Source of the DNA: Limnochorda pilosa
Lineage (GTDB): Bacteria > Bacillota > Limnochordia > Limnochordales > Limnochordaceae
Assembly: GCF_001544015.1 (NCBI RefSeq)
Contig: NZ_AP014924.1
Span: forward strand, 1,240,001 to 1,304,000
DNA length: 64,000 nucleotides
Direction of reading: 5' to 3'
Below, one piece after another: positions 36,021 to 46,253 of the stretch (the first letter of the stretch is position 1; every line of letters begins with the position of its first letter). The position numbers and the translations under genes are program-made. The notes beneath the pieces are model-generated. The model had not been told where the DNA came from and did no database searches. It saw nothing but the letters and a program-made list of their open reading frames with translations.

Positions 36021-36716
36021 CTACCCGCAGAACCGGTAGCCCACGCCGCGCACGGTCTCGATGTAACTGGGATGGGCCGGGTCGGCTTCCAGTTTCTCCC
36101 GCAGGCGGCTCACCAGGACGGTCACGTTGTTCAGGTCGCCGGCGTAGTCGCTCTGCCACACGTGTTCGAGGATCTGCTCCCGGCTGAAGACGGCCTGGGG
36201 ATGGCTGGCCAAGAGCCAGAGCAGGTCGAACTCCTTGGCGGTGAGCTGGATGGGCTGCCCCTGGCGGACCACGTGGCGGCGGCGGGCGTCGATCTCCAGG
36301 GTGGGGAAGCGGAGCACGCCCGAAGGCGCCCCAGGCGCTCCGGCGCGGGTGCCGGCCCGCCGGAGGACCGCGGCCACCCGCAGCACCAGCTCGGACAGGC
36401 TGAAGGGCTTGGTCATGTAGTCGTCCACCCCCAGGCGGAAGCCCACCAGCTTGTCCAGCTCATCGCTGCGGGCGGAGAGGATGATGATGGGGGTGTCGCT
36501 CCGTTCGCGCAGGGCGCTGCAGACGCCGAAACCGTCCAGACGGGGGAGCATCACGTCGAGGATCACCAGGTCCGGCCGGTTCTGATCGAAGAGGCGGAGC
36601 GCCTCCTCGCCGTCGCCGGCCACCTCCACCTGATAACCCTCGCGCTCCAGCCGGACCCGCAGGGCCTTCTGGAGCTGAACCTCGTCGTCGACCACCAGGA
36701 TGCGCGCTTGGGGCAC
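36021..36716 (-). CDS. OmpR/PhoB-family response regulator (partner of the haem-type kinase)
   Basis: The 231-residue regulator has a receiver domain (VVDDEVQL, phosphoacceptor Asp in LVILDVMLPRLDG, Lys in YMTKPFSLSEL) and a winged-helix output domain (IQLTAKEFDLLWLLASHPQAVFSR, NVTVLVSRLREKLE, ETVRGVGYRF). It starts with GTG at 36716 just 1 nt after the kinase stop, with its GAGGAGGCGG site inside the kinase gene, so the two form a cognate pair. The likely target is the redox module directly downstream. Confidence 0.93.
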   Translation of the reverse strand: MPQARILVVDDEVQLQKALRVRLEREGYQVEVAGDGEEALRLFDQNRPDLVILDVMLPRLDGFGVCSALRERSDTPIIILSARSDELDKLVGFRLGVDDYMTKPFSLSELVLRVAAVLRRAGTRAGAPGAPSGVLRFPTLEIDARRRHVVRQGQPIQLTAKEFDLLWLLASHPQAVFSREQILEHVWQSDYAGDLNNVTVLVSRLREKLEADPAHPSYIETVRGVGYRFCG

Positions 36717-36717
36717 G

Positions 36718-38412
36718 TCATCCGCCTCCTCTCACGGAACCCCTCTCACCCTCCGGCGGCGCCCCGCCCGACCAGGCGGGGAGCTCGAAGGAGAAGGTGG
36801 AACCCTCGCCCGGCTCGGACTCTGCCCAGATGCGACCCCCGTGCAAGGAGATCAGGTTGCGAGCCAGGGTGAGGCCCAGTCCGCTCCCCGGAGGCTTGCG
36901 GGTGCCCGGCTCCTCCACCTGGTGGAACTTTTCGAAGATGCGCTCCAGATGCTCCGCGGGGATGCCGACCCCCGTGTCCCGCACCCAGAAGCGCAGCCGC
37001 CCGGGGGCCGCCGGGGCCACCCCCACCGTGACGCGGCCGCCCCGGGGGGTGAACTTGACCGCGTTGGAGAGCAGGTTGCCCAGTACCTGCATCAGCTTCT
37101 CCCCGTCCGCCTCCACCACCGGATCCGCGTCCGGCGTCTCGAGATTGAGGGTGATCCCCTTCTGCTCGGCCAGGGGCCGGATCCGCCGCACCGCGGAGGC
37201 GAGCAGGGGTCCCACCTGGAGCGCCTCCAGCTCCAGGCGCATCATGCCCGCCTCGATGCGGGCCATGTCCAGCAGGTCGGTGATCTGGCCGTAGAGGCGC
37301 TGGCTGGACTGCTGGATCTCCTGCAGGTACTCGCGCTGCTCGAAGCTGAGGCCTTCCCGCTCGTCCAGCATCAGCTCGGTGAAGGCCAGGATCGAGCTCA
37401 GGGGCGTGCGGAGCTCGTGGCTCACCGACGCCAGGAATTCGGACTTGAGCCGGTTCGCCCGCGCCAGCTCCCGGCCCTTCTCTTCCAGCTCCTGGCTCTG
37501 GCGCCGCAGGGCTTCGTTCATCTCCCGGAGCCGCCGGGTCCGCTCCTCCACCCGGGCCTCCAGGCTGTCGTAGAGGCTCTTGAGCTGGGCCGCCATGGCT
37601 TCCATGGTGTGCGAGAGGAGCCCGATCTCGTCCCGGCTGGGCAGGGTGGGGCGAGGGGCCAGGTCTCCGGCGCCGATGCGGCCGGCTCGCTCGGTGAGGA
37701 GCTGGAGCGGCCGGGTCACCAGGCGCCCCAGCAGGACCAGCAAGGCCAGGAGCGTGGCGAGGAAGAGGGTGCTGGAGAAGATCAGGTGGCTCCGCAGCCG
37801 GGAGGCCAGGCTCTCCTGGTACGGCGCGGCCGGCACGCTGATGCTGAGCGCGCCCATGAGCTTGCCCGTGTAGGCCTGCCCGTCGGGTCCCGCCATGCCT
37901 GCGTGGCAGCTCAGGCACGACTCTTCCATGTAGATGGGCTGGACATAGCGGAAACGGTCCCCGTCGTCGGCGGGCACCATCCGCCAGTAGGCGGGGGAGG
38001 CATGGGGCGTCCCCAGCGGGGCCGGCGTTGAGGCGGTGAACGAGGCCAGGGCCTCGGTCTCGAACCCGTCCGGGTGATGCGAGGGGTCGCTGGCTTGGGT
38101 CCAGACCTCGCGCACCTGGGTGTGGGCGACGTCGCCGAAGATCTGGCCGGTCACCCGGGCCACCGCTTCGGGTTCCAGGTGGCGGAAGGTACCGGGCAGC
38201 GGCGCCTCGGGGGACCCCCGGCCGCTCTGGGCCACGTAGGAGCGCACCGCCAGGAACTGCATGCTCACCGCCTCGGCCTTCTCCAACAAGGTGGCCTCGG
38301 CGCTGCGCCGCTGCTGGTAGCTCTGCCACAGGAAGGTGGCCCCGCTCATCACCAGGCTGACGATGGCGACGGAGCCGATCAGCTTGAAGCTCAACCGGTG
38401 CCACAGATGCAT
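36718..38412 (-). CDS. Sensor histidine kinase with Tll0287-like (DUF3365) haem-binding sensor domain
   Basis: The 564-residue kinase has membrane helices near 12-32 and 215-237 flanking an extracytoplasmic domain. That domain contains PIYMEESCLSCHAG, a CxxCH c-type haem motif (Cys166, Cys169, His170), with the surrounding pattern of DUF3365/Tll0287 domains. A HAMP domain, a coiled segment, the HisKA box (SVSHELRTPLSSIL) and the ATPase domain (NLLSNAVKFTPRGG, DTGVGIP, GSGLGL) follow. The covalent haem suggests redox or gas sensing outside the membrane. It leads the minus-strand block controlling or sensing the HybA/HybB-like module, and its promoter has a perfect CRP/FNR-family site. Confidence 0.9.
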   Translation of the reverse strand: MHLWHRLSFKLIGSVAIVSLVMSGATFLWQSYQQRRSAEATLLEKAEAVSMQFLAVRSYVAQSGRGSPEAPLPGTFRHLEPEAVARVTGQIFGDVAHTQVREVWTQASDPSHHPDGFETEALASFTASTPAPLGTPHASPAYWRMVPADDGDRFRYVQPIYMEESCLSCHAGMAGPDGQAYTGKLMGALSISVPAAPYQESLASRLRSHLIFSSTLFLATLLALLVLLGRLVTRPLQLLTERAGRIGAGDLAPRPTLPSRDEIGLLSHTMEAMAAQLKSLYDSLEARVEERTRRLREMNEALRRQSQELEEKGRELARANRLKSEFLASVSHELRTPLSSILAFTELMLDEREGLSFEQREYLQEIQQSSQRLYGQITDLLDMARIEAGMMRLELEALQVGPLLASAVRRIRPLAEQKGITLNLETPDADPVVEADGEKLMQVLGNLLSNAVKFTPRGGRVTVGVAPAAPGRLRFWVRDTGVGIPAEHLERIFEKFHQVEEPGTRKPPGSGLGLTLARNLISLHGGRIWAESEPGEGSTFSFELPAWSGGAPPEGERGSVRGGG

Positions 38413-39334: not shown

Positions 39335-39402
39335 GTGGGACCGGAGACCTGGAGAAGTCCCACCTGAACCTGGGGTATGCCCTGGGGTCAGGTGGGACCT
39401 TT
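39335..39402 (+). promoter_or_regulatory. GlpP-type leader of glpD: competing antiterminator and terminator hairpins
   Basis: GTGGGAC (39335-39341) can pair with GTCCCAC (39357-39363), enclosing the loop CGGAGACCTGGAGAA. The same GTCCCAC is also the left arm of an 11-bp stem, GTCCCACCTGA (39357-39367) with TCAGGTGGGAC (39388-39398), followed by CTTTCCTTT. The two structures exclude each other. The second resembles an intrinsic terminator. GlpP, encoded downstream, is known in Bacillus to antiterminate glpD. Confidence 0.75.
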
Positions 39403-39421
39403 CCTTTGGGAGGGAAGAATC

Positions 39422-41062
39422 ATGGATCGAGACCTGGACCGGATGAGCGCGACGTCCTTCGACCTCCTGGTGATCGGAGGGGGCATCAACGGTACGGGTG
39501 TGGCCCGGGACGCCGCGCTCCGGGGGCTCCGGGTGGCACTGGTGGAGAAGAACGACTGGGGCTGGGGCACCAGCGCCCGCAGCACCCGGCTGATCCACGG
39601 GGGTCTGCGCTACCTGGAGCAGTACGACTTCGCGCTGGTGCACGAGGGCCTGAAGGAACGCGAGCTCCTACTCAGGAACGCCCCCCACCTGGTGAAACCT
39701 CTGCCGTTCCTCACCCCTGTCTACCACGGCGATCGCCACTCCTGGCTGATGGTGAAACTGGGGATGATCCTCTACGACCTCCTTTCTTGGCGAAAGAGCC
39801 TGCCGACCCACCGGTCCTTCGGCCCCGAGGAGACCCTTCGCCTGGAGCCCACCCTCAAGCCCGACGGGCTTCGGGGCGGAATGCTCTACTACGACGGGCA
39901 GGTGGACTTTCCCGAGCGACTCTGCATGGCCAACGTCGTCGATGCGGTGGAGCACGGCGCCCACGCCGCCAACCACGCCCGGGTGACGGGCTTCCTCCGG
40001 GAGGAGGGGCGGATCGTCGGGGCGACGGTGGAGGACGGGCTCACCGGCCGCACCTACTCGATCCGGGCGCGGGTGGTGGTCAACGCTGCGGGACCCTGGG
40101 CCGACGCCGTCGCCGGGCTGGCGGACTCTGGGTATCAGCCCAGGCTCCGGCGGACCGAGGGGATCCACCTGGTGGTTCCCGCCTTCACCCGGCATGCGGT
40201 GGTGATGCTGGCTCAGCGGGACGGCCGGGTCTTCTTCGCGGTGCCGTGGCAGAGACACGAACTCGTGGGCACGACCGACACCGACTTCGACGGGGACCTC
40301 GACCGGCTCTCGGCGTCGGACAGCGACGTGCGCTACCTGGTGGAGGAGACCCGACGCCGCTTCCCCACCGCCCGCCTGGACGAGATCGCCTACACCACCT
40401 CCGGCGTCCGGGCTCTGGTCCGGCAACCCGGGGCGAGGGACCCCTCGGCGACCTCCCGCAAGCACCTGGTGCACCGGCACCGCACTCCCGGCAGCGAGAA
40501 CCTCATCTCGATCCTGGGCGGCAAGCTGACCGCCTACCGGTGCCTGGCCGAAGAGGTGGTGGACCGGGTCTGCGACGTGCTGGGCGAGCGGCGCCCTGGC
40601 CGCACCGACACCACGCCGCTTCCGGGAGGCGAGGAGAGGGACGTCGCCGGTCTCGCCCATCGCCTGGCGGAACGGGTGGCTGATCGCGGCGTGGCCGCCG
40701 AGGCAGTGACCCACCTGGTCCGGCTCTACGGGACTCGGGCCGAGGGCCTTCTCGAGGAGGGGCTGCGACAGCCGGAGCTCCTGCAGCCCATGGTCCCCGG
40801 TGGCAAGGATCTGTGGGTGCAGGTCCTCCAATCGGTGGAGCACGAGATGGCTCGAAGCGTGGACGACGTCCTGCTCCGCAGGCTCGCGCTGGGGCTCGAA
40901 CCCGGCAACGGCTGGGAGGCAGCTCCCGAGATCGCCCGCCGGATGGGCGACCTCCTCGGTTGGGACGAGGCCAGGATTCGGTCCGAGGTGGATGCCTACC
41001 GGCAGACACTGGGGTTGATGCGCGCGCGCGACCTGGGGGTGCCGCACGCCGCCATGGGCTAG
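39422..41062 (+). CDS. glpD: Aerobic glycerol-3-phosphate dehydrogenase
   Basis: GlpD oxidises glycerol 3-phosphate to dihydroxyacetone phosphate and passes electrons to quinone. The 546-residue flavoprotein has the FAD-binding GGGINGTGVARDAA, WGWGTSARSTRLIHGG, GLRYLEQYDFALVHEG and NAAGPWAD motifs, and a typical C-terminal helical domain. The ATG at 39422 follows GGGAGGGAAG. Its leader contains a terminator with a competing hairpin, matching known GlpP control. glpP follows 94 nt downstream. Confidence 0.95.
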   Translation: MDRDLDRMSATSFDLLVIGGGINGTGVARDAALRGLRVALVEKNDWGWGTSARSTRLIHGGLRYLEQYDFALVHEGLKERELLLRNAPHLVKPLPFLTPVYHGDRHSWLMVKLGMILYDLLSWRKSLPTHRSFGPEETLRLEPTLKPDGLRGGMLYYDGQVDFPERLCMANVVDAVEHGAHAANHARVTGFLREEGRIVGATVEDGLTGRTYSIRARVVVNAAGPWADAVAGLADSGYQPRLRRTEGIHLVVPAFTRHAVVMLAQRDGRVFFAVPWQRHELVGTTDTDFDGDLDRLSASDSDVRYLVEETRRRFPTARLDEIAYTTSGVRALVRQPGARDPSATSRKHLVHRHRTPGSENLISILGGKLTAYRCLAEEVVDRVCDVLGERRPGRTDTTPLPGGEERDVAGLAHRLAERVADRGVAAEAVTHLVRLYGTRAEGLLEEGLRQPELLQPMVPGGKDLWVQVLQSVEHEMARSVDDVLLRRLALGLEPGNGWEAAPEIARRMGDLLGWDEARIRSEVDAYRQTLGLMRARDLGVPHAAMG

Positions 41063-41156
41063 CCCCGGCGGTGACGGAGGATTCGAGGACGGTCGTCGGG
41101 AAGGAACTGCGCGCCCGGGTGAGCGGAAGGCCTCGGGGGCGAGGGGATGGGAACCC

Positions 41157-41765
41157 GTGCAAGCAGCGGCCAGGCAAGCCAGCTTTGCGGCCCGGCTTCA
41201 GGAACGCCGCGTCATCGCGGGGGTCAAGGAGCCGGCTCAGATGGCTCGAGCCCTGGCGGCAGGGGTCCGGGTGATCTTCTACCTCACCGGGACCATCTAC
41301 GACGTGGCGAAGGCCGTGCGGCGGAAGGAGGCCGAGGAACCCGACGCCCTTCTCTTCTGCCACGTGGACCTCATCCAGGGCCTGGGCAAGGACGAGGTGG
41401 GAGTGCGCTTCCTTGCCCAGGACTTGAAGGTGGACGGCATCCTCACGACCCGCCGACATCTGGTGCAGGCAGCTCGGGACGTCGGCCTGCTCGCCATCCA
41501 GAGAGTCTTCATGCTGGACTCGGAAGGGCTCCGCACCGCCCTCGGTGTCCTCAAGGGGGGCCGCCCTGATGCGATCGAGATCCTGCCCGCCCTGGTGGTG
41601 CCGCACATCGCCCACCGGCTTCCCTGGGAGGCGTTGCCTCCGGCCATCGCGGGCGGGCTGGTGGAGACCCGGTCGGAGCTGGAGCAGATCCTGGCGACGC
41701 CCGTGAAGGCCGTCTCCACCAGCAGGGAGGAGCTGTGGGCAGGAGCGCGCCGCACGAACAAGTAG
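41157..41765 (+). CDS. glpP: Glycerol-3-phosphate-responsive antiterminator
   Basis: The 202-residue TIM-barrel-like protein matches GlpP: RVIAGVKEPAQMARALAAGVRVIFYLTG, LLFCHVDLIQGLGKDEVGVRFLA, DGILTTRRHLVQAARDVGLLAIQRVFMLDSE and EILPALVVPHIA. GlpP binds glycerol 3-phosphate and lets RNA polymerase pass leader terminators of glp genes. It starts with GTG at 41157 after a GAGGGG tract. Two leaders with the predicted target architecture flank it, before glpD (39335) and before the hydrolase gene (41880). Confidence 0.92.
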   Translation: MQAAARQASFAARLQERRVIAGVKEPAQMARALAAGVRVIFYLTGTIYDVAKAVRRKEAEEPDALLFCHVDLIQGLGKDEVGVRFLAQDLKVDGILTTRRHLVQAARDVGLLAIQRVFMLDSEGLRTALGVLKGGRPDAIEILPALVVPHIAHRLPWEALPPAIAGGLVETRSELEQILATPVKAVSTSREELWAGARRTNK

Positions 41766-41879
41766 GGCGAACGCTCCATGGAGAAGGAAACCGATGGTTC
41801 GCGTTGAAAGAGGTGTCGACATCAGACTGGGGCCGTTCCTTGGCGGGCTCCCTTGAAGTCACGCAACGCCGTGCGTTCA

Positions 41880-41939
41880 GTGGGCGGAGACACCGGAGAA
41901 GACCCACGGTTGACGTCGGGGACGTCAAAACCGTGGGTC
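41880..41939 (+). promoter_or_regulatory. GlpP-type leader of the membrane hydrolase gene
   Basis: GTGGG (41880-41884) can pair with CCCAC (41903-41907) around a loop carrying CGGAGACACCGGAGAAG. The CCCAC also lies in the left arm GACCCACGGTT (41901-41911), which pairs with AACCGTGGGTC (41929-41939); an inner GACGTC/GACGTC pair extends that stem. The order, the GGAGAC…GGAGAAG loop and the mutual exclusion match the glpD leader. The gap 41766-42037 holds no gene. Confidence 0.7.
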
Positions 41940-42037
41940 GTTCGCGTTCCGGCCCCTGGTGCCCGCGAGCCGGGTGATCGGCCTCTGGTCTGGCACGCAG
42001 CGGAGGGCCAGCATCTCTGAGACAGGAGGCATCATCC

Positions 42038-43858
42038 TTGAAGCGGAAATGGCTCTTGATCCTATCCCTCGTCCTCGTCGTGGCGGGCGGCTACCTCGCC
42101 AGCGCCGTCCAATCCGACTATGGGCACGTCCGGGTCAGCGATCTTCGCATCGCCGGGCAAGACGGCAAGATCTTGAGCGCTCTGCTCTACGTGCCGGAGA
42201 ACGCCACCGACAAGACCCCAGCTCCTGCCGTGCTTACCATGCACGGATACATCAACACCCGGGAGACGCACAGCGGCTTCAACATCGAGTTCGCCCGGCG
42301 CGGCTATGTCGTGCTGGCGCTGGACATGGCGGGGCACGGCTACTCCGACCCGAGGGCATTCGTCAACTACGACCTCACTCGGGGCGCGCAAGATGGCCTG
42401 TACTACCTGGCCAGCCTCCCCTTCGTGGACAGGACGAACATAGCCACTCACGGCCACTCCATGGGCGGCTGGTCCACGTTGCGGGCGGCGAACGACAACC
42501 CGGATCTGGTGAAGACCGTGATCCTTCAGGGTTCCTCCTCGGAGACCTATCTTTCCGGTGAGGTGACGGCAGAGAGCCCCTTCAACTTCGCTGTCAACTT
42601 CTCCAGGTACGATGAGTTCTGGGACCTGATGTGGAACGACAAGGACGCGGCAGGGAAGCCGATTGCTGTCGACGCGACTGGCGCACCGCTGGTGAAGAAG
42701 CCGTCCGACATCGTCAAGGCCCCCAAACTCAAGAAGATCTTCGGTGTGACCGAGGATGTCGTCCCCTTCAGCATGTACGGCGATCCGGCCAACGAGACGG
42801 CTCGCATGCTGTACATCTCCGATACCACCCACCCGGGTGACCATCTTTCGAAAGAGGCCATCGGGTACAGCATCTCGTTTCTGAATGAGACCATCCCGGC
42901 TCCGAAACCCTTGCCTGTCTCCAACCAGATCTGGCACCTGAAGGAGTTCGGGACCCTGGTCACCCTGGTCGGCATCTTCCTCTTCCTCTTCGCGATCGGT
43001 GAGAGGCTCCTGGACTCGGCGTACTTCCAGAGTCTCAGGCAGCCGGCTCCAGAGCACCCGGGCAGCAGCCGGGCAGCCTGGTGGGTCGGGGCGCTGATCG
43101 CCACGGCCATCCCCGCCGCGACCCTGTTCAAGTTCAAGGGCTGGGGCGGAGTGTGGGTCCCCGCCAGCGCGACCTTCCCGCAGGCCATCACCTCGCAGTT
43201 GATGATCTGGGCGGTACTCAACGGCCTGATTGCCCTGGCGCTCTTCATCGGCTGGCACTACCTCGCGGGCGCGAAGCAGGGCGGTGGTGCTCTGCAATAC
43301 GGCCTCTCCACCGACCGCAGTCGCTTCGCCCTGGACTGGGGCCACGTTGGCAAGGCTCTGCTGCTCGCCGTCAGTGTGGTCGGCATGGCCCAGGTCCTGG
43401 TCCATTTCGTGGAGTGGGCGTTCCTGGTCGACCCTCGTTTCTGGGTCGTCGCCCTCAAGCCGCTGACCGCGGCCCGCTTCGGTACGTACCTGACCTACCT
43501 GATCCCGTTCTTCCTCTTCTTCCTGGCGTCCTCGCTGATCATGCACGGACAGCTGCGGCTGAAGGGGAAGAGCCTTGGTGTCGAGATGGCGGCCAACGCC
43601 CTCGTGGGTGCCCTGGGCATCACCGTGCTGGTGGCGCTCCAGGTCGGCCACCTGTTCGCCACCGAGACCCTGATGTTCCCCCGCGAGTCCCTGTGGGGCA
43701 TCATCGCCTATCAGTTCATCCCGCTGACGGCCCTGGCGGGCGCTCTCTCCACCTTCTTCTTCCGGAAGACCGGAAGCGTCTACGCGGGTGCGATGGTGAA
43801 CGCGCTCTTCATCACCTGGTACATCGTCGCTGGCCAGGCGATTCACTTCGCCGGATGA
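42038..43858 (+). CDS. Alpha/beta hydrolase with C-terminal polytopic membrane domain
   Basis: The 606-residue protein starts with an uncleaved-looking hydrophobic helix (WLLILSLVLVVAGGYLASA), then an alpha/beta hydrolase domain to about residue 290 with oxyanion-type LTMHGYINTRET, LDMAGHGYSD and the nucleophile elbow ATHGHSMGGWS. The C-terminal 300 residues contain about eight membrane helices of unknown function. TTG at 42038 lies 8 nt after AGGAGG. It sits between glpP and glpK with a GlpP-like leader, so it may release glycerol or a glycerol ester product; the substrate is inference. The hydrolase faces out of the inner membrane if the first helix is an anchor. Confidence 0.8.
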   Translation: MKRKWLLILSLVLVVAGGYLASAVQSDYGHVRVSDLRIAGQDGKILSALLYVPENATDKTPAPAVLTMHGYINTRETHSGFNIEFARRGYVVLALDMAGHGYSDPRAFVNYDLTRGAQDGLYYLASLPFVDRTNIATHGHSMGGWSTLRAANDNPDLVKTVILQGSSSETYLSGEVTAESPFNFAVNFSRYDEFWDLMWNDKDAAGKPIAVDATGAPLVKKPSDIVKAPKLKKIFGVTEDVVPFSMYGDPANETARMLYISDTTHPGDHLSKEAIGYSISFLNETIPAPKPLPVSNQIWHLKEFGTLVTLVGIFLFLFAIGERLLDSAYFQSLRQPAPEHPGSSRAAWWVGALIATAIPAATLFKFKGWGGVWVPASATFPQAITSQLMIWAVLNGLIALALFIGWHYLAGAKQGGGALQYGLSTDRSRFALDWGHVGKALLLAVSVVGMAQVLVHFVEWAFLVDPRFWVVALKPLTAARFGTYLTYLIPFFLFFLASSLIMHGQLRLKGKSLGVEMAANALVGALGITVLVALQVGHLFATETLMFPRESLWGIIAYQFIPLTALAGALSTFFFRKTGSVYAGAMVNALFITWYIVAGQAIHFAG

Positions 43859-44025: not shown

Positions 44026-45540
44026 TTGGCTCGCTACGTGGGCGCCATCGACCAGGGCACCACCAGCACCCGGTTCATGGTCTTCGACCGCGAGGGACGG
44101 GTGGTGGCCGCGGCCCAGAAGGAGCACCGTCAGATCTATCCTGAGCCCGGATGGGTGGAGCACGACCCCCTGGAGATCTGGGAGCGCACCCAGGAGGTGA
44201 TCCGAGAGGGCCTCGGCCGCGCGGGCCTGACCGGGGAGGACCTCGCCGCCCTCGGCCTCACCAACCAGCGGGAGACGATCATCGTCTGGGACCGGCGGAC
44301 CGGCCGGCCGTACACCAACGCGCTGGTCTGGCAGGACACCCGCAGCAATGCCATCTGCCAGGAGCTGACCGCCGAGGGAGGCCCGGACCGCTTCCGTGAC
44401 CGCACGGGGCTGCCGATCTCCACGTACTTCTCGGGGCCGAAGCTCCGGTGGACCCTGGAGCAGGTGCCTGGGGTACGGCAGGCGGCCGAGCGGGGCGAGG
44501 CGCTCTTCGGCACCGTAGACACCTGGCTCCTCTGGTGGCTGAGCGGGGGACCCGAAGGCGGCGTCCACGTCACCGACGTGACCAACGCCAGCCGGACGCT
44601 CCTGATGAACCACGCCACCCTGGACTGGGACCCGGAAATCCTCGCGATCCTGGGCATCCCGCGCGCGATGCTGCCCGCTATCCGCCCCTCGAGCGATCCG
44701 GACCTCTACGGCACCACCCGACCCGACGGGCCGTTGGCAGCCGCAGTCCCTCTGGCCGGCGCCCTGGGCGACCAGCAGGCGGCCCTGGTGGGCCAGGCGG
44801 CCTTCGCCCCGGGTGACGTGAAGAACACCTACGGCACGGGCTGCTTCGTGGTGATGAACACGGGCGAGCGCAGGGTCCTCTCCCGACACGGACTCCTCAC
44901 CAGCGTCGCCTACCGGATGGCCGACGAACCGGCCGTCTTCTGCCTGGAGGGCTCCATAGCCATTACGGGCGCGCTGGTCCAGTGGCTGCGGGACAACCTT
45001 GGGATCATCCAGAGCTCCGGCGAGGTGGAGAGGCTGGCTCGGAGCGTGGAGGACTCGGGCGGGATCTACTTCGTCCCGGCCTTCTCCGGGCTCTTCGCGC
45101 CCCACTGGGACAGCCGCGCCCGGGGATTGCTCATCGGTCTCACCCGTTACGTGAACCGGGGCCACCTGGCTCGTGCCGTGCTGGAGGCGACCGCCTACCA
45201 GACGGAAGAGGTCCTCCGGGCCATGCGGCAGGATAGCGGTGCGTCGCTGGCTGAGCTGCGGGTCGACGGGGGGATGGTGGCCAACGACTTGCTGATGCAG
45301 TTTCAGGCGGACCTGTCGGGCATTCCCGTCATCCGTCCCCAGGTTGCGGAGACCACGGCCCTGGGAGCCGCGTACGCAGCCGGCCTGGCCGTCGGGCTCT
45401 GGGACGGGCGGGAGACGCTGCAGCGTCTGTGGCGGGAGGACCGGCGCTGGCAGCCCACCTGGGGAGAGGCTCATCGCGAAGAGGCGCTGCGCGGCTGGCT
45501 GCGGGCGGTGGAGCGGGCCATGGGTTGGCTCGAGGCGTAA
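44026..45540 (+). CDS. glpK: Glycerol kinase
   Basis: GlpK phosphorylates glycerol to glycerol 3-phosphate, the ligand of GlpP and substrate of GlpD, PgsA and PlsY. The 504-residue FGGY kinase has [40 protein letters not shown], the phosphate-binding [13 protein letters not shown] and [11 protein letters not shown], and the adenosine motif [19 protein letters not shown]. The TTG at 44026 lies 9 nt after TGGAGG. The stretch before it shows no GlpP-type hairpin, unlike glpD and the hydrolase. No glpF facilitator is in the window. Confidence 0.95.
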
Positions 45541-45641: not shown

Positions 45642-46253
45642 ATGGCTTGGACGACAGGCCTGCTTTGGGCTGGCCTCCTGGTGGGCAGCTACCTGGTCGG
45701 ATCCATCCCGTTCGCCCTCATCATGGGCAAGGTGCTGCGGGGGGTGGACGTCCGGCACGGCGGCAGCGGCAACGTGGGGAGCACCAACCTCCTGCGCCTC
45801 GCCGGCTGGCTGCCCGCGGCCCTTGCCTTCTCCCTGGATCTCCTGAAGGGCACCCTGCCCGCTCTGGCCGGAGCGTGGCTCGCCGGGCCCGTCGGCGGCC
45901 TGATGGCGGGCCTGGCCGCGGTGGCCGGTCACAACTGGTCCGTCTACCTGCGGGGCCGGGGCGGCAAGGGTGTGGCCACCAGCCTGGGCGTGCTCCTGGC
46001 CGTGGCGCCCGTGGCGGCCCTAGTGGCCGTGGCCCTCTTCCTCTTGGTGGTCGTCCTCACCCGCTACGTCTCGTTGGGCTCCATCACGGCCTCGCTCTCC
46101 GTCCCCGTGGCCCTCTGGCTCCTGGGCGCGGGGTGGTACGAGGTCGGGTTGGGCGGGCTGCTCACCGCCCTCCTGGTGCTGCGGCACCGGCCGAACATCG
46201 CCCGCCTCCTGGCCGGGACCGAGAACCGCTTCAGGTCGCCCCGACCGTCCTGA
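45642..46253 (+). CDS. plsY: Glycerol-3-phosphate acyltransferase PlsY
   Basis: PlsY transfers an acyl group from acyl phosphate to glycerol 3-phosphate, the first step of phospholipid synthesis in Bacillota. The 203-residue inner-membrane enzyme carries all three motifs: GSIPFALIMGKVLRGVDVR with HGGSGNVGSTN, GHNWSVYLRGRGGKGVATSLG, and HRPNIARLLAGTENR near the C terminus. The ATG at 45642 lies downstream of a purine-rich AGAGGGGACG. It follows glpK by about 100 nt, grouping glycerol 3-phosphate supply with its main anabolic use. Confidence 0.95.
   Translation: MAWTTGLLWAGLLVGSYLVGSIPFALIMGKVLRGVDVRHGGSGNVGSTNLLRLAGWLPAALAFSLDLLKGTLPALAGAWLAGPVGGLMAGLAAVAGHNWSVYLRGRGGKGVATSLGVLLAVAPVAALVAVALFLLVVVLTRYVSLGSITASLSVPVALWLLGAGWYEVGLGGLLTALLVLRHRPNIARLLAGTENRFRSPRPS

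Follow-up and report, generated by a model that had tools for sequence, protein, structure and literature searches.

Double-GGAGA leader hairpins as putative GlpP targets in Limnochorda pilosa and other Bacillota

The role of GlpP as an RNA-binding antiterminator has been recognised since the 1990s. In B. subtilis, the glpD, glpF, and glpT promoters are activated by GlpP, and deletion of glpP abolishes the induction of PglpD (PMC9604022). That GlpP together with glycerol 3-phosphate relieves termination at B. subtilis glpD is cited as already known in PMC3997798 and PMC9604022, and the former also cites Glatz 1998 for the finding that GlpP binds the glpD leader mRNA. GlpP antitermination, its B. 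subtilis leaders, and the binding of GlpP to the glpD leader are prior knowledge (PMC9604022, PMC3997798, PMC7430163). In a 2013 regulon study, the GlpP regulon was not studied by comparative genomics (PMC3750489). Here, we describe two leader elements in a 64,000-nucleotide stretch of the Limnochorda pilosa genome (contig NZ_AP014924.1, positions 1,240,001 to 1,304,000, forward strand; referred to simply as the window), one before glpD and the other before a hydrolase gene, with glpP situated between them. Both sites are very probably GlpP-responsive transcription attenuators, in which GlpP would bind a hairpin loop with two GGAGA repeats and block the terminator. This reading is based on the anatomy of the elements, the exclusivity of their two folds, their conservation and the covariation of their stem arms, their association with glpP and with glycerol-phosphate genes, and their occurrence, as read in B. 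spizizenii, in the leaders that are under known GlpP control in B. subtilis.

Two leader elements around glpP

The original prediction described, at both sites, a GTGGG…CCCAC stem closing a double-GGAGA loop, with the CCCAC strand reused by a strong downstream hairpin. This anatomy was verified at each, with stems of 7 and 5 base pairs (bp). The parts of the two leaders are, in window positions:

39335..39363, + strand: antiterminator hairpin of the glpD leader (site 1), stem 39335-39341 / 39357-39363; from sequence and a match to covariance model R1
39343..39355, + strand: double-GGAGA loop of site 1 with a spacer of 3 nucleotides (nt), the proposed GlpP contact; the fixed element across 83 diverse leaders
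39357..39408, + strand: terminator hairpin of the glpD leader with T-rich tail; hairpin 39357-39398, -33.7 kcal/mol, z -6.0
41880..41907, + strand: antiterminator hairpin of the second leader (site 2); from sequence and a stem and overlap test
41901..41949, + strand: terminator-like hairpin of the second leader; hairpin 41901-41939, -29.6 kcal/mol, z -5.8

At site 1, GTGGGAC (39335-39341) pairs with GTCCCAC (39357-39363) around the loop C-GGAGA-CCT-GGAGA-A, the repeats lying at 39343-39347 and 39351-39355. Positions 39357-39363 are common to the antiterminator and the terminator: GTCCCACCTGA doubles as the start of the hairpin 39357-39398, which has 18 pairs with one internal mismatch and is followed by the T-rich tail CTTTCCTTT. 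At site 2, GTGGG (41880-41884) pairs with CCCAC (41903-41907) around C-GGAGA-CACC-GGAGA-AGA (repeats 41886-41890 and 41895-41899, spacer 4 nt), and GACCCACGGTT doubles as the start of the hairpin 41901-41939, which opens just before the shared arm. The terminator hairpin and the upstream stem are thus mutually exclusive at both sites, through the shared arms 39357-39363 and 41903-41907. Taken in isolation, the antiterminator hairpins gave -12.3 (site 1) and -8.8 kcal/mol (site 2). Since the terminator is the stronger fold in each leader, the upstream stem could prevail only with assistance. A simple promoter and terminator scan made no call at either site; its stem model allows no mismatches, and site 1 has one.

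Chance expectation was assessed with 120 Markov-1 random windows of 64 kb having the same dinucleotide composition. The window contains four GGAGA-N2..5-GGAGA pairs, of which only those at sites 1 and 2 are flanked by a stem of at least 5 bp, both with an overlapping hairpin. The random windows held on average 0.09 pairs with a stem and 0.025 with a stem and an overlapping hairpin, against the two observed. The bare double GGAGA was rejected as a signal, being too common in a G+C-rich genome (95 matches in the 3.8-Mb genome vs 71 for a reversed-pattern control). Hence, the combination of stem, pair, and overlapping hairpin is remarkable, and the pair alone is not.

When the whole genome was searched with R1, site 1 was the top match (24.4 bits, E 0.0018). 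The remaining matches, up to E 10, were rejected as further targets; they have no overlapping terminator and look chance-like.

Conservation and covariation across Bacillota

GlpP loci were collected from 300 genomes of the phylum and from named Bacilli, the latter via a narrower GlpP alignment. The layout in Bacillota is a variable stem, a fixed double GGAGA, and an overlapping terminator, and in relatives the element, oriented like glpP, lies directly behind this gene and ahead of glpD. The original prediction regarded the whole motif, stem included, as conserved, with differing terminator arms. This holds for the two sites, which share the motif and differ in the terminator arms past the common CCCAC. 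Across relatives, however, the stem sequence varies (e.g., GGACUU...AAGUCC, AUGGC...GCCAU, CGGUU...GACCG, UGUG...CACA), and it is the double GGAGA that stays fixed.

A position-anchored test, which avoids circularity, was carried out on the regions within 350 nt after glpP or before glpD in the named Bacilli. The exact double GGAGA was found in 50 of 80 glpP-downstream and 55 of 76 glpD-upstream regions, as compared with 11 of 3455 control windows (0.3%); for a relaxed pattern, the corresponding values were 64/80, 74/76, and 4.8%. As the Bacilli are mutually related, these region counts are not independent.

In the 83 diverse leaders, the two arms formed a mean helix of 4.00 bp, which fell to 2.95 +/- 0.12 bp when partners were shuffled between leaders. 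The covariation score was 0.292 vs 0.131 +/- 0.016 and exceeded that of all slid registers, in a structural alignment that was itself fitted to structure; the arm-shuffling test is the cleaner of the two. The spacer is 3 nt in 70/83, the second repeat is GGAGA in 78/83, and the first in 59/83 (UGAGA being next), counts for which the search pattern is partly responsible. In 57 of the 83, the left arm of the terminator begins at the final A of the second repeat. Mutual exclusivity of stem and terminator is therefore general across leaders.

The covariance search of Bacillota glp leaders proposed in the original prediction was run with R1, which was trained on 36 leaders, none of them a glpT leader. 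Among 201 Bacilli genomes it gave 41 matches of at least 28 bits, 33 of them within 8 kb of glpP; R1 matches of any score within that distance lay on the glpP strand in 64 out of 64 cases. In B. spizizenii TU-B-10, the leaders of glpD, glpF, and glpT rank as the top three matches, all of them terminator-bearing; in the close relative B. subtilis, the corresponding promoters are the ones reported to be activated by GlpP. A fourth match in that genome has no terminator.

Twenty of the matches away from glpP were inspected. Copies that a terminator overlaps stand before glpD (L196, L197, L202, L209), GDPD genes (L198, L201), glpT (L203), or glpF (L212). At L200, L208, and L213, the element and terminator stand before a divergent glpP paralogue followed by HAD phosphatase and ABC-transporter ATPase genes, likely an autoregulated second GlpP system. 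L195 has a terminator but stops at a contig end; the others among the twenty have no terminator.

Closer to L. pilosa, the element occurs before glpP in the same genus (L304), before ugpA (L306, L116/L311) and glpD (L307) in the same order, and before a GlpO/GlpA-like oxidoreductase gene (L279, L281) in the same class; in L302, of that class too, it precedes a HAD phosphatase gene and then a putative extracellular solute-binding protein gene. All six of the class genomes with the element that were checked have glpP. At L116, one match runs antisense to glpP (10219 on the minus strand); it was set aside as apparently spurious, the sense-strand element before ugpA being the plausible one. Absence of the loop before other glp genes had been named beforehand as a refuting outcome; the loop is found before glpF, glpD, and glpT in the B. 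subtilis group, and before glpD, ugp, GlpO-like, and glpP genes in the class of L. pilosa.

Two further features of the leaders may be noted. The stretch AAGUUAAUA is conserved just upstream of the hairpin in many Bacilli leaders (L036-L115; e.g., L042:13085-13107) and is absent in the window; AGTTAATA is present in 34/83 representatives. The AAGUUAAUA element seemingly lies at the 5' end of the transcript and may serve 5'-end stability or RNA polymerase pausing. Double-GGAGA copies also occur in tandem before glpF or ugp, like tandem riboswitches (L150:10394-10521; L125:9022-9149, minus strand; L129:12104-12217; L306, G511:C1:2724885-2725194).

Gene neighbourhood and proposed mechanism

The gene order in the window is pgsA-like, leader 1, glpD, glpP, leader 2, hydrolase, glpK, plsY:

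39422..41062, + strand: glpD, glycerol-3-phosphate dehydrogenase/oxidase type (DAO + DAO_C; Pfam PF01266 3e-58, PF16901 1e-23)
41157..41765, + strand: glpP, glycerol-3-phosphate responsive antiterminator (Pfam PF04309 8e-50)
42038..43858, + strand: alpha/beta hydrolase with C-terminal membrane part, first gene behind leader 2 (Pfam Hydrolase_4/S15, FrsA-like)
44026..45540, + strand: glpK, glycerol kinase, directly after the hydrolase gene (Pfam FGGY_N, FGGY_C)
45642..46253, + strand: plsY, glycerol-3-phosphate acyltransferase, after glpK (Pfam PF02660 5e-51)

This glpP is the sole PF04309 gene of the genome. GlpP has structural relatives in the PDB, 3kts and 1vkf; these were the only PDB matches, both listed as protein and neither a GlpP-RNA complex. 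Leader 2 heads the hydrolase-glpK-plsY genes, and so is effectively a glpK-operon leader. No MIP/glpF gene was found in the L. pilosa genome, and the hydrolase occupies the place that glpF has in Bacilli. The membrane hydrolase may free glycerol from acylglycerols or related esters. A response regulator and histidine kinase pair (36021-38412, minus strand) adjoins pgsA and glpD.

In the proposed mechanism, without glycerol 3-phosphate the nascent leader would adopt the stronger terminator, and transcription would halt ahead of both glpD and hydrolase-glpK-plsY. When glycerol 3-phosphate is present, GlpP would bind the loop of the double-GGAGA hairpin, perhaps with one repeat per GlpP subunit, and keep the short upstream stem closed. 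As that stem and the terminator share a strand, the 3' arm of the one and the 5' arm of the other, the terminator could then not form and RNA polymerase would read through. The constant distance between the two identical repeats suggests that they meet a pair of equivalent binding surfaces, possibly those of a GlpP dimer. We infer the contact between GlpP and the repeats, the dependence on glycerol 3-phosphate in L. pilosa, and the one-repeat-per-subunit geometry. The original prediction named the double-GGAGA loop as a candidate for the GlpP recognition element; at the level of sequence, conservation, linkage to glpP, and overlap with the terminator support this candidacy.

Several observations weigh against this mechanism. 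The site 2 tail, GTTCGCGTT, is T-poor and has no proper U-tract. Site 2 was missed by R1 even with E-values of up to 10 allowed; its 4-nt spacer and asymmetric arm are the presumed reasons. In the Bacilli, 30 of the 80 glpP-downstream regions lack the exact double GGAGA, many stems are only 3-5 bp, and the first repeat of the B. subtilis-group glpD leader is CUGAGA. Finally, genome G358, which has no PF04309 gene, keeps a double-GGAGA glpD leader with terminator, its stem unpaired (L202, G358:C4:502623-502657). That leader is possibly a relic left after loss of glpP, or glpP may lie in an assembly gap. As for the hairpin at 41901-41949, it is very stable yet poor in U-tract, and termination in a G+C-rich genome may obey other rules.

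CsrA-type proteins prefer GGA in hairpin loops, and the loop here holds two such triplets. It could accordingly be read by another GGA-binding protein of this kind, with GlpP acting elsewhere in the leader. We consider this very unlikely: the element follows the position and strand of glpP, its terminator-bearing copies adjoin glycerol-phosphate genes, to which CsrA targets would not be limited, and glpP accompanies it in each class relative checked. Slighter still is the prospect that the RNA is a riboswitch sensing glycerol 3-phosphate by itself, with no protein involved. A conserved loop, an expression platform, and metabolite genes are riboswitch-like, but an aptamer consisting of a loop of some 14 nt on a stem of 4-7 bp would be very small, glpP is adjacent, and in B. 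subtilis the induction of glpD is lost on deletion of glpP (PMC9604022). Just as improbable is that the hairpins, which do lie directly 3' of pgsA and glpP, are plain 3'-end terminators of these genes near chance GGAGA pairs of the sort common in a G+C-rich genome, given that stem and overlap together are rare by chance and that the arrangement is kept across Bacillota with varying stems.

Comparison with known systems

A search against Rfam 15 gave no gathering-level match in the window. Around the two sites nothing credible appeared even with the E-value limit raised to 10, and 20 related loci yielded no match at a limit of 0.05. A weak match of TEG147 to the site 2 terminator, far below the cut-off, was rejected. 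No description of the motif was found in a literature search whose reach did not extend to the classical B. subtilis papers; these reportedly may mention a conserved stretch in the three leaders.

We think it fairly probable that GlpP (PF04309) reads GGAGA-N3-GGAGA in one loop as a Bacillota-wide RNA class outside Rfam 15. Its regulon would then extend beyond glpFK, glpD, and glpTQ to ugp transporters, GDPD enzymes, HAD phosphatases, autoregulation of glpP and, here, a membrane hydrolase in the place of glpF. Given the 35-nt consensus and its two fixed repeats, recognition can be tested directly in binding, mutation, and co-crystallisation experiments, and the GlpP regulon can be annotated across Bacillota. 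The element could also serve as an Rfam family and as a portable glycerol sensor.

Among other attenuators, the BglG/LicT/SacY-type antiterminators that act on the ribonucleic antiterminator (RAT) are alike in that a protein stabilises an upstream hairpin overlapping a terminator. The regulator encoded next to the leaders is, however, a PF04309 protein and not a CAT-PRD protein, and RAT is not known to have a double GGAGA loop. In the TRAP and HutP attenuators too, a ligand-activated protein recognises short repeated leader signals, whereas the window has two GGAGA repeats within one hairpin loop. The dual hairpins targeted by ANTAR proteins likewise present two small repeated signals that are read by an antiterminator protein, but the element of the window carries both repeats on a single hairpin.

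The likeness to the B. subtilis glpD, glpFK, and glpTQ leaders extends to the double-repeat loop, the short stem, the overlapping terminator, and the gene targets, the element having been read in B. spizizenii. In contrast to these, the window leaders are G+C-rich with stems of 5-7 bp, leader 2 drives hydrolase-glpK-plsY, glpF being absent from the genome, and the AAGUUAAUA 5' element of Bacilli leaders is missing. The sites thus join a known kind, the GlpP antitermination leader, to which a phylum-wide definition of the element and a wider regulon are added.
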